This document shows, piece by piece, positions 36,286 through 40,410 of a stretch of DNA of 64,000 nucleotides. The notes below the pieces were generated by a model. It saw only the letters and a program-made list of their open reading frames with translations. It was not told the origin of the DNA and searched no databases. Each line of letters starts with the position of its first letter. Within the stretch, counting starts at the first letter, position 1. A program made the translations under genes and the position numbers. This stretch comes from Caulobacter sp. (GTDB taxonomy: Bacteria; Pseudomonadota; Alphaproteobacteria; Caulobacterales; Caulobacteraceae), in the NCBI GenBank assembly GCA_016125585.1, contig WGLL01000002.1, forward strand, positions 268,666-332,665. The letters are read 5' to 3'.

Positions 36286-36891
36286 ATGCCCAGACTGACC
36301 GGACAGATTGATCTTTCCAAGACCGAGGCCATCCTCGACGCCGCCTCCGAGGTGCTGGCCGAACGCGGCCTGGCCGCCCCCATCCAGGAGATCGCCCGCC
36401 GCGCGGGGGTCTCGAAACAGACCATCTACAACCGCTACGGCAGCAAGACCGAGCTGGTCCGGGCCCTGGTCGAGCGGCGGGTGGATTCGATCACCGCCCC
36501 CCTGCGGACCCCCGGCGCCGAGCAGCGTCCCGAGGAGACCCTGGCCGCCTATGCCCGCACCCTGCTGCAGGTCATCTCCACCGGCAGCTATTCGGTGATG
36601 CGGCTGTCGATCCAGAGCGCCGCCGAAATGCCCGATCTGGCGCGCGAGGTGTTCGAGAGCGGCCCCAAGCGCTCCCGCGCCCAGCTGGCCGCCTTCCTGG
36701 ACCTGGAAACCCGGGCCGGCCGGCTGAACGTCGACGATCCCCTGCAGGCGGCGGAATTCTTCGGCGGCATGGTGCTGGGTCACCGCCAGACCCAGGCCCT
36801 GCTGCGGCTGGGCTGGGACCTGTCGGAGGCGGAGATCGACAAACTGGCCCGGGCCGCCGCCCGGGTCTTCATGCGGGCCTACGCGGCCTAG
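36286..36891 (+). CDS. TetR-family regulator of the emr operon
   Basis: 201 residues: N-terminal TetR HTH (ILDAASEVLAERGLAAPIQE, then IARRAGVSKQTIYNRYGSKT) and an all-helical ligand domain. It starts one base after the second pump gene stop and ends overlapping the convergent fabI stop by 4 bases. Likely a repressor that senses a pump substrate and autoregulates the operon through the palindromes at 31828-31914. Confidence 0.92.
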   Translation: MPRLTGQIDLSKTEAILDAASEVLAERGLAAPIQEIARRAGVSKQTIYNRYGSKTELVRALVERRVDSITAPLRTPGAEQRPEETLAAYARTLLQVISTGSYSVMRLSIQSAAEMPDLAREVFESGPKRSRAQLAAFLDLETRAGRLNVDDPLQAAEFFGGMVLGHRQTQALLRLGWDLSEAEIDKLARAAARVFMRAYAA

Positions 36892-37709
36892 CCCGCGCCG
36901 TTGGCGATTTCGTCCGGCAGCCCCATCATGTGGAAGCCGGCGTCGACGTGGATCACCTCGCCGGTGGTCGAGCGGCCCAGATCCGACAGCAGCCACAGGG
37001 CGCAGCCGGCGACCCCTTCCATGCTGGTGTCTTCCTTCATGGCGCTGAACATCCGGCCCTGGCCGAGCAGGCCCCGGCCGCCGCTGATCCCGGCCAGGGA
37101 CAGGGTGCGCATGGCGCCGGCCGAGATGGCGTTGACCCGGATGCCCTGGGGGCCCAGGTCGCGGGCGATGTAGCGGGTCGCCGCCTCCAGCGCCGCCTTG
37201 GCCACGCCCATGGTGTTGTAGTTGGGAATGACCCGCTTGGAGCCAAGGTAGGTCATGGTCACCATCGACCCGCCCGGCTTCATCATCTTGCTGGCGCGCC
37301 TGGCCGCGTCGACGAAGCTGAAGGCGGAGATGTTCATCGCCGTCAGGAACCCGTCCCGCGTGGTGTTCTCGACAAAGCTGCCCTTCAGCTCGTCCTTGTT
37401 GGCGAAGGCGATGGAGTGGACCAGGAAATCCAGCCCGCCGAAGCGCTGCTCCAGCTCGGCGAAGGCCGCGTCCATCGAGGCGTCATCGGTCACCTCGCAG
37501 GGGATGAAATCGGTCACCCCGATCGCCTCGCCCAGCGGCCGCACGCGCTTTTCCATGTCCGGCAGATAGGCGAAGGCCAGCCGGGCGCCCTGGGCGGCCA
37601 GCTGCTGGGCGATGCCGTAGGCGATGGAATTGTGGTTCGCCACCCCCATGACCAGCCCGGTCTTGCCGGCCATCAGGTCACCCTTGGGGAAGCTGTATTC
37701 TTCGGCCAT
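36888..37709 (-). CDS. fabI: Enoyl-[acyl-carrier-protein] reductase (NADH)
   Basis: Last reductive step of fatty acid elongation, target of triclosan. 273 residues, SDR fold: nucleotide-binding GVANHNSIAYGIAQQLAAQG, SIAFANKDEL, the FabI-type catalytic pair in YLGSKRVIPNYNTMGVAKAA (Tyr and Lys six apart), and C-terminal GEVIHVDAGFHMMGL. GAGGAG precedes the ATG. It belongs to the fabA-fabB-fabI group but is separated from fabB by an oxidase gene. Confidence 0.96.
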   Translation of the reverse strand: MAEEYSFPKGDLMAGKTGLVMGVANHNSIAYGIAQQLAAQGARLAFAYLPDMEKRVRPLGEAIGVTDFIPCEVTDDASMDAAFAELEQRFGGLDFLVHSIAFANKDELKGSFVENTTRDGFLTAMNISAFSFVDAARRASKMMKPGGSMVTMTYLGSKRVIPNYNTMGVAKAALEAATRYIARDLGPQGIRVNAISAGAMRTLSLAGISGGRGLLGQGRMFSAMKEDTSMEGVAGCALWLLSDLGRSTTGEVIHVDAGFHMMGLPDEIANGAG

Positions 37710-37763: not shown

Positions 37764-37868
37764 CTAGAGCGCGTTCCCATTGGTGGGAACCGGCAATCGG
37801 ATCAAACGCGCGACCCGCAAGAGTCCGGAGCGGCGCAACATCGGTCCGTCATGTCGCGCCCGCTTCAC
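37764..37868 (+). repeat. Composite two-hairpin intergenic repeat, copy 3
   Basis: CTAGAGCGCGTTCCCATTGG ... CGGATCAAACGCGCG, then a second stem GAGCGGCGCAACAT / ATGTCGCGCCCGCTT. It contains a CcrM-type GAGTC site. It starts 55 bases upstream of the fabI start and its far end overlaps the stop codon of the oxidase gene. Confidence 0.8.
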
Positions 37869-39073
37869 GCCCGAGCGGTCTCGAACAGCGGCGCGACCGT
37901 GGCGATCGCCGCCTCGGCCTCGGCCCGGTCGGGGGTTTCGTCCTCCGAGCCGTAGCCCCACATGGCCGGGCCGCCATACTGGACGACGATGCCGTCCGGC
38001 CGGGGCAGCACGTTCACATGCCGGTAGTAGAGGCCGTAAGAGACCTCCGGCTGCGGGGCCAGCCAGGCGATCTGGCCGCGCACCGGCGTCACGCTGTCGT
38101 CCTGCCACAGGGCGCGGGCCCCATAGCCGGTGCAGTTGACCACCACCGGCTGCGCCAGGCGGGCGAGGTCGGCCGGGGTGTTGAAGGTCATGGTCTCGAT
38201 CCGGCCGCCCTCGACCAGGAAATCGCTGGTCAGCAGATGGGCCAGTTCGGCGACGTTGAACTGCATCGACACCCCGTGCCGCGCCCGGGCGACCGGGAAG
38301 GGATGTTCGGACGGCTCCAGGCTCCGCCACGGCGGCGCCGTACCGGGCAGGTCGGCCTCGAAGAAGTTTACCCGCGGAACCGACACCGGCCGTTCCGGGA
38401 AGGCCACGGGCGGGCCCCCGGCGTCCGGCGCGTCGAACAGCGTGTAGCGGTCGGTCCAGGCCACCGGATCGCCCGGCAGGCCGAGCAGCGTCTGCCAGGC
38501 GGCGTAGGAGGCGCGGGCCATCTGGTCGTAGAGGGCGGGAAAGGCGCCATCCACCTTGTCGGCGTTGGCGATCCGGCTGTCGGGCGACCAGGTGCCGGTG
38601 GCCCGCGCCGACCGCGTATAGGGCGCCCGGTCGGCGGCGTAGATGGTCACCTTCGCCCCGGCCCGCAGCAAGGTCAGGGCGCTGGTCAGGCCGATGACGC
38701 CGCAGCCGATCACCGCGACCTCCCGCGTCCCGCCCTGCAGCGCCTTGGCCGCCGCGATCCGGGCGCTGCCCCAGGACAGGGACCAGCCGCTGCCGCCGTG
38801 GCCGTAGTTGTGCACCACCCGCTTGCCGGCGACCTGTTCGACATCCAGCCGGGGGCCGGCGTCGCGGAACGGCCGCAGGCAGACGGTGATCCTGGTGATC
38901 CGGTCGGCCCGCATCTTCAGCGGCGCCAGCGGCGGGACGACGAAGCGCGGCCGTGGCGGCAGGGCCAGGGGTGCGGCGGCGCGCGGCGTCTCGCAGCCGG
39001 CCAGGCCCAGGGCGCCAAGCCCGCCGATACCGGCCAGGACGGCGCGTCGGCTGCGAAGATCGGCGGTCGTCAT
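37865..39073 (-). CDS. FAD-dependent D-amino-acid-oxidase-family protein, apparently circularly permuted, Tat lipoprotein
   Basis: 402 residues. N-terminus LRSRRAVLAGIGGLGALGLAGC is a twin-arginine signal ending in a lipobox (Cys27). Unlike ordinary DAAO proteins, the segment normally at the C-terminus (CLRPFRDAGPRL and VVHNYGHGGSGWSLSWG, residues 65-102) comes before the FAD dinucleotide motif VIGCGVIGLT (121-130); the protein then runs through the usual middle (TGTWSPDSR, NCTGYGARALW) and stops after NVLPRPDGIVVQYGG and a helix, where that segment would be expected. Likely an exported amino acid or amine oxidase. GGGAG supports the ATG at 39073. Lies between fabB and fabI. Confidence 0.85.
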   Translation of the reverse strand: MTTADLRSRRAVLAGIGGLGALGLAGCETPRAAAPLALPPRPRFVVPPLAPLKMRADRITRITVCLRPFRDAGPRLDVEQVAGKRVVHNYGHGGSGWSLSWGSARIAAAKALQGGTREVAVIGCGVIGLTSALTLLRAGAKVTIYAADRAPYTRSARATGTWSPDSRIANADKVDGAFPALYDQMARASYAAWQTLLGLPGDPVAWTDRYTLFDAPDAGGPPVAFPERPVSVPRVNFFEADLPGTAPPWRSLEPSEHPFPVARARHGVSMQFNVAELAHLLTSDFLVEGGRIETMTFNTPADLARLAQPVVVNCTGYGARALWQDDSVTPVRGQIAWLAPQPEVSYGLYYRHVNVLPRPDGIVVQYGGPAMWGYGSEDETPDRAEAEAAIATVAPLFETARA

Positions 39074-39147
39074 GCGGGTCTCCCGGGCCAGGCGCCGGGG
39101 AACCCTAACCAACCGGCGGCGCCGGAGCCAGCCTTGAGGCCGGCGTC

Positions 39148-40359
39148 CTAGACCCTGGCCATGATCAGGCAGCCGTTGGTGCCGCCAAAACCGAAGCTGT
39201 TGCTCATCGCCACATTGACCGGCTTGTCCGACCGCTTGAGCAGGATCGGCAGGTCGGCGAAGGCCGGATCGAGCGTGTCGATATTGGCGCTCTCGGCGGC
39301 GAAGTCGTTGTTCATCATCAGCAGGCTGTAGATCGCCTCCTGCGCCCCGGCCGCGCCCAGGCTGTGGCCGGTCAGGGACTTGGTCGAGCTGATCAGCGGG
39401 GCCTTGTCGCCGAACACCTGGCGCACCGCGTCCATCTCCTTGGCGTCGCCGACCGGGGTCGAGGTGCCGTGGGGGTTGAGGTAGTCGATGGTCCGGCCGC
39501 CGGCGCTGTCCATGGCCAGTTTCATGCAGCGGATGGCGCCTTCGCCGGACGGCGCGACCATGTCGAAGCCGTCGCTGTTGGCGGCATAGCCGACGATCTC
39601 GCCGTAGATCTTCGCGCCGCGCGCCCTGGCCCGCTCGTAGTCCTCCAGCACCACGATCCCGGCGCCGCCGGCGATGACGAAGCCGTCGCGGTCGGCGTCA
39701 TAGGCGCGGCTGGCCCGGGCCGGAGTGTCGTTGAACTTCGACGACATGGCGCCCATGGCGTCGAACAGGTTGGACAGGGTCCAGTCCTCTTCCTCGGTCC
39801 CGCCGGCGAAGATCACGTCCTGCTTGCCCCAGGCGATCTGCTCATAGGCCGAGCCGATGCAGTGGGTGGAGGTGGCGCAGGCCGAGCTGATCGAGAAATT
39901 GAGGCCGCGAATCTTGAACCAGGTCGACAGCACCGCCGAGGGGCCGCTGCTCATCGCCTTGGGCACCGCGAACGGACCGATGCGCTTGGGGCCCTTCTCG
40001 CGGGTGGTGGCCGCCGCCTCGACGATGACGTGGGTCGAGGGACCGCCGGAGCCGACGATCAGGCCGGTCCGCTCGTTGGAGACCTCGCCCTCTTCAAGAC
40101 CGGCGTCGGCGATCGCCTGTTCCATGGCGATGTGGGCATAGCCGGTGCCCTTGGCCAGGAAGCGGGCGGCGCGGCGGTCGACATGCTCTTCCCAGGCGAT
40201 GTCGGGCACGGCCCGCACCTGACAGCGGAAACCCAGTTCGGCGTAATCGGGCGCGGCGGTGACGCCGCTGCGGGCCTCGCGCAGCGAGGTCAGCACCTCG
40301 CCGGCGTTGTTTCCAATCGACGAGACGATGCCGATGCCGGTGACCACGACGCGTCGCAT
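39148..40359 (-). CDS. fabB: 3-oxoacyl-ACP synthase I
   Basis: Condensing enzyme needed for unsaturated fatty acid elongation. 403 residues, thiolase fold, with the catalytic triad: cysteine in [14 protein letters not shown], histidine in [11 protein letters not shown] and histidine in [14 protein letters not shown], and C-terminal [21 protein letters not shown] precedes the ATG at 40359. Follows fabA by 51 bases in an operon. Confidence 0.96.
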
Positions 40360-40410
40360 GGCGACTCCTTCATTCCCCAAGGTGCAGAGACGTTTCTTGT
40401 TGTTCTGTCG

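Follow-up and report, generated by a model that had tools for sequence, protein, structure and literature searches.

The gene at 37865-39073 on the minus strand of the window (the whole 64,000-nucleotide stretch of DNA analysed) encodes, with a probability of about 0.87, a natural circular permutant of the D-amino-acid oxidase (DAAO)/D-aspartate oxidase (DASPO) fold. Judged from its sequence, the product would bind FAD, is probably exported and would oxidise a small carboxylate substrate. The chain would begin with the strand and helix that come last in a canonical DAAO, carrying the carboxylate-binding arginine and the HNYGHGGSG flavin loop. After a junction it would continue as the usual first strand with its GxGxxG motif, and it would end with the helix that normally precedes the last strand. 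The features of the locus, in the order in which the permuted gene is read, are as follows.

39148-40380, minus strand: fabB (beta-ketoacyl-ACP synthase I), the upstream neighbour (NCBIfam NF005935, 688.5 bits)
37865-39073, minus strand: coding sequence of the predicted circularly permuted DAAO-family flavoprotein, 402 amino acids (open reading frame and translation; Pfam DAO in two pieces, 100.1 bits)
38993-39073, minus strand: residues 1-27, putative twin-arginine-like, lipoprotein-like export signal (SRRAVLAG...LAGC, with Cys27), from the sequence and from RR and lipobox patterns in most relatives
38735-38902, minus strand: residues 58-113, the relocated DAAO C-terminal segment (strand, RPFR, HNYGHGGSGWSLSWG, helix), matching 7ct4 320-369, 9vpf 308-360 and positions 301-352 of the Pfam DAO profile
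38873-38875, minus strand: Arg67, equivalent by alignment to Arg283 of mammalian DAAO
38720-38734, minus strand: residues 114-118, a short junction between the former C-terminal helix and the former N-terminal strand, with constant spacing in most relatives
37883-38728, minus strand: residues 116-397, predicted FAD- and substrate-binding core in normal order (Pfam DAO 2-297; 7ct4 20-302 with the family profile)
38690-38707, minus strand: residues 123-128, the dinucleotide-binding motif GCGVIG (translation; start of the Pfam DAO profile)
38012-38014, minus strand: Asn354, at the position of DAAO Tyr228 in the rotated alignment
36888-37709, minus strand: an enoyl-ACP reductase FabI-like gene, the downstream neighbour (NCBIfam NF005078, 2.2e-95, below the curated cut-off)

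The reading frame spans 39073 to 37865, with the ATG at 39073 as the preferred start codon and an in-frame TTG further upstream, at 39112, as a possible one. The gene is present as a single copy in the source genome. In the translation LRPFRDAGPRL and HNYGHGGSGWSLSWG (residues 66-102) come first and GCGVIG (123-128) follows, Leu66 with RPFR and the run from His88 to Gly102 both standing ahead of Gly123 to Gly128; the residue numbering and motif order given in the original prediction are correct.

The swapped order is seen directly in comparisons with enzymes of solved structure. When the single protein was searched against all PDB sequences the best matches were DAAO and DASPO, with residues 59-108 falling on their C-terminus and residue 115 onward on their N-terminus. 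The front segment (59-108) aligned with residues 320-369 of the DAAO 7ct4 (36.2 bits, i-E 2.8e-8; 2.2e-14 with the family profile), and the downstream part aligned with residues 20-302 of the same chain. As a sequence match, that of the front segment to the DAAO C-terminus is far above chance. The Pfam DAO profile (PF01266) is covered once by the native protein, as 2-299 and 301-352 in swapped order, and the score of 100.1 bits against a curated cut-off of 27.9 places the protein in the DAO superfamily. Rotation of the protein, with residues 115-402 placed first, gave one Pfam DAO stretch (4-356 to 2-352/353, 106.8 bits). A rotated family profile built from 10 relatives likewise matched the DASPO 6rkf (2-342/346, E 4.3e-43) and the DAAO 7ct4 (E 7.9e-43) in one stretch each, with glycine oxidases reaching only about 1e-5, whereas the family profile in native order matched the solved enzymes as two swapped stretches. 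The protein thus consists of two complementary pieces in swapped order with the old termini joined, which is the arrangement of a circular permutant and not that of a canonical DAAO or DASPO chain. The GxGxxG motif, expected at the N-terminus (PMC9844085), lies at 123-128, after the C-terminal segment. That segment occurs only once: neither the open reading frame, nor the 155 bases from its stop to fabI, nor the rest of the window contains another copy, and the protein does end where the segment would otherwise follow, as originally claimed.

The junction is compact. In canonical bacterial members the last helix ends ~11 residues past the Trp-Gly of NYGHGG…WG, and the first strand begins 2-3 residues after the initiator. 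In the window protein the same last helix passes into the same first strand through ~4-5 residues, so that hardly any linker has been added between the old ends. The loop between the final core helix and the C-terminal strand is where the chain now opens: behind the signal its first element is the strand ADRITRITVCLRPFR and its last is the helix DETPDRAEAEAAIATVAPLF, in keeping with the placement of the new termini first suggested. The parts of the flavin site are divided over the two halves, with GxGxxG and NCTG in the core and HNYGHGGSG in the front segment. On the most economical reading the front segment would close against the core in the manner of DAAO, most likely with both pieces forming one FAD site. 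AlphaFold models calculated from 7 and 9 sequences were of low confidence (mean pLDDT 39.9 and 49.3). The best Foldseek match in the PDB for the second of these (pLDDT 49.3) was yeast DAAO 1c0k, with E 2.6e-3, TM 0.27 and an rmsd of 14.7 Å, which is no real superposition.

The original prediction proposed a permutation-aware comparison and a search for other proteins of the same order, and both supported it. Relatives were collected as 59 distinct sequences, and each one contains the HNYGH-type motif once, at the front. The spacing from HNYGHxGxG to GxGxxG is 26 residues in 54 of them. Compared with eight canonical DAAO proteins, 58 of the 59 match with both pieces, all swapped, and none is collinear. 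Such relatives are found in Caulobacter, Polymorphobacter and other Alphaproteobacteria, and in the window's order they occur in 59 of 150 sampled genomes (14 of 31 genera). In a sample of Pseudomonadota they are present in 19 of 399 genomes, 18 of these being Alphaproteobacteria, and plasmid records add Niveispirillum, Kozakia, Bradyrhizobium, Rhizobium, Mesorhizobium and one actinomycete, Nonomuraea. The rotated full-length profile found matches in 14 of 299 Pseudomonadota genomes, each of them broken into two pieces, as permuted genes should be, and detected no canonical-order DAAO past 1e-20 in those 299 genomes. Members are annotated in the databases as 'FAD-dependent oxidoreductase'. The same order thus recurs in dozens of related bacteria, and the swapped order is therefore a real and old natural rearrangement of DAAO.

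The low confidence of the AlphaFold models, and the division of one relative (Mesorhizobium pOM4) into two overlapping reading frames, might be taken to mean that the front segment is a separate or decaying piece (a fusion remnant, or the product of a frameshift or an assembly error) that leaves the fold incomplete, and that the gene is a truncated DAAO or a pseudogene. We regard this as highly improbable, given the identical order in 59 distinct sequences from many genera, the constant junction spacing and the lack of another copy of the segment. Moreover Arg67 and the HNYGHGG loop are nearly invariant, pointing to strong purifying selection on the front segment. Truncation, assembly error and frameshift were rejected on the strength of this conservation across relatives.

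Several individual loci have features of their own. In Mesorhizobium onobrychidis pOM4 (L153:7971-9034) the two overlapping reading frames have 95 and 259 codons; the split falls just inside GxGxxG and stems from a frameshift or sequencing error, and the thiamine-diphosphate enzyme gene alongside is intact. In Nonomuraea gerenzanensis (L150:7848-10724) the permuted DAAO and a thiamine-diphosphate enzyme lie beside transposase-like reading frames, and this setting in an actinomycete suggests horizontal transfer of the locus from proteobacteria. On an IMG/VR contig (L089:1-7400) a permuted gene whose end seems to be truncated or frameshifted has a terminase-like gene on one side and portal-, protease- and capsid-like genes on the other, a setting like that of a prophage or gene-transfer-agent cluster. 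A phage origin of the permuted gene was considered from three copies in the viral-contig collection and rejected, with zero matches among annotated phage genomes.

In a tree containing the canonical enzymes sampled, a single branch separates the permuted proteins from them (SH-aLRT 99, all columns). The same branch is recovered without the moved segment (99/99 support, all bootstrap trees); the tree is unrooted, and the canonical sample is small with long branches. The swapped order thus fits a single origin in these sequences. An unrooted tree leaves the direction of change unfixed, and the swapped order could instead be ancestral, or have arisen more than once. We consider this improbable, because the permuted rows lie on one side of one well-supported branch and because the canonical order, common to DAAO, DASPO and glycine oxidase of animals, fungi and bacteria, is the likely ancestor. 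Under a single permutation of a canonical DAAO, the order would presumably have arisen once, when two copies produced by duplication fused and the outer ends were lost.

The active site is conserved in part. Arg283 binds the substrate carboxylate in mammalian DAAO (PMC6279847), and its equivalent is arginine in all 59 permuted and all 8 canonical rows of the alignment. The arginine-proline pair is present as R67-P68-F-R70. The glycine of GxRPxR is replaced by Cys-Leu (VCLRPFR), leaving RPxR as the exact part. The YGHGGxG loop is present as Y90GHGGSG96 with invariant glycines, and Gly94 occupies the Gly313 position. Across the permuted family the FAD-loop glycines, HNYGHGG and the Arg283 equivalents are invariant or almost so. 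The Tyr228 equivalent is tyrosine in 21/21 rows of the other permuted clades; in the window protein it is Asn354, and Ser, Asn, Phe or Gly is found there across the window's clade. Only in this clade are Thr44, Gln53 and Tyr228 replaced, by Arg, Ser and Asn respectively, and the GGT motif lost. Three kinds of permuted protein can thus be distinguished, the window's clade being the first. The L019- and L033-type groups have putative export signals and keep Tyr228. The predicted cytosolic sister clade (L039, L091, L150, L151, L152 and L040) also keeps Tyr228 and is mostly signal-less, L040 being the member with a signal.

With Tyr228, the partner of the carboxylate-binding arginine, lost from the clade, the substrate of the window protein is uncertain, as is any action on D-amino acids, and the term 'D-amino-acid oxidase' used in the original prediction is best read here as a label of family and not of activity. 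The swap may be real and the window's clade may yet no longer be an amino-acid oxidase, having become a dehydrogenase, or an oxidase acting on some other carboxylate (a 2-hydroxy acid or an N-substituted amino acid, for example), with a periplasmic cytochrome or quinone as its electron acceptor. The losses of Tyr228, Gln53, Thr44 and GGT in this clade only would agree with such a change, as would a cytochrome c gene directly downstream in Kozakia, where a beta-lactamase-fold hydrolase gene lies two genes upstream. We consider this a serious but not the favoured possibility. The Arg283 and Gly313 equivalents are retained, and the Tyr228-type tyrosine is not universal in any case, being variable in some DAAOs or DAAO candidates (PMC9844085). 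The cytochrome c neighbour is found in one locus only, and the Kozakia neighbours are an isolated hint to function.

At the level of sequence patterns, most members of the window type and of the L019/L033 types start with a twin-arginine-like motif, and a lipobox-like pattern is present in 43 of the 59 sequences. Export of most window-type members is therefore likely. We propose that the window protein is a periplasmic, lipid-anchored FAD oxidoreductase acting on a small carboxylate, probably an amino acid. In the window's clade the reaction would take place in the periplasm after twin-arginine/lipoprotein export, and the enzyme would convert a small molecule bearing a free carboxylate (an amino acid, for example) by oxidation to the imine or 2-oxo acid. 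Export as the reason for the permutation is disfavoured, as five of the six sister-clade members (L039, L091 and L150-L152) have no visible signal.

The genes flanking the permuted gene differ between clades. The order fabA-fabB-permutant-fabI is found in four caulobacterial loci, the window and three others. A comparison of 35 loci revealed no shared partner gene for the window's clade, conservation of the neighbours does not extend from clade to clade, and the fab genes are uninformative, so the neighbourhood was dropped as a guide to function for the window's clade. In four loci of another alphaproteobacterial family (L054, L061, L063 and L064) an HslU-like AAA ATPase gene lies directly beside the permuted gene, and the other side looks like hslV. 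Sister-clade members (n = 4, plasmid or chromosomal, in Bradyrhizobium, Rhizobium, Mesorhizobium and Nonomuraea) directly adjoin a thiamine-diphosphate enzyme, an arrangement in keeping with an oxidase that acts on an amino acid and a neighbour that uses the resulting 2-oxo acid. In the Bradyrhizobium and Rhizobium plasmids (L151 and L152) a berberine-bridge-type FAD oxidoreductase (FAD_binding_4 + BBE) lies upstream and the thiamine-diphosphate enzyme downstream, possibly forming a small biosynthetic or catabolic operon.

Few flavoenzymes have been studied as much as DAAO, which has found wide use in biotechnology. All the family segments of DASPO (EC 1.4.3.1) and DAAO (EC 1.4.3.3), such as 6rkf, 7ct4 and 1an9, are common to the permutant: GxGxxG, RPxR, YGHGGxG and the carboxylate-binding arginine, with an end-to-end match after rotation. 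The permutant differs from them in having the C-terminal segment at the front and, in most window-type members, an export signal; the window's clade differs also in the loss of Tyr228 and GGT. Canonical DAAO-like proteins of Actinomycetota (L144-L149) are homologous to the permutants over the whole length and closely alike in the RPxR...NYGHGG segment, but their chain order is normal, they have no export signal and they branch separately in the tree. The superfamily core is common also to glycine oxidase ThiO and other GR2 flavoenzymes (PF01266), but there it is in canonical order and the similarity is far weaker (about 1e-5 compared with 1e-43). Circular permutation is a known evolutionary route, and in itself no new kind of biology. 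Natural permutants are known elsewhere in swaposins, legume lectins and permuted methyltransferases, where the rearrangement is of the same kind, with the chain ends moved and the parts homologous. To our knowledge there is no natural circular permutant among the DAAO/GR2 flavoenzymes, and we found no published report of a circularly permuted DAAO or FAD oxidoreductase in the open-access literature searched. A bioinformatic survey of DAAO describes an N-terminal fingerprint with GxRPxR and YGHGGxG as further conserved regions, makes no mention of permutation, and describes bacterial DAAOs as poorly mapped and hard to recognise (PMC9844085).

We think it likely that a single ancient permutation gave rise to a new alphaproteobacterial family of the DAAO fold, with a very short linker and a front segment that contributes half of the FAD/substrate site, and that one of its clades became a lipoprotein of the periplasm, its active site altered and its reaction possibly a new one. 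A natural permutant of DAAO exposes an overlooked alphaproteobacterial family. It shows where the fold tolerates new termini, and offers a ready scaffold for fusions and sensors. It also poses a testable question, that of whether a large Rossmann-type flavoenzyme is equally able to fold and to bind FAD when an element of the cofactor site is made first rather than last.
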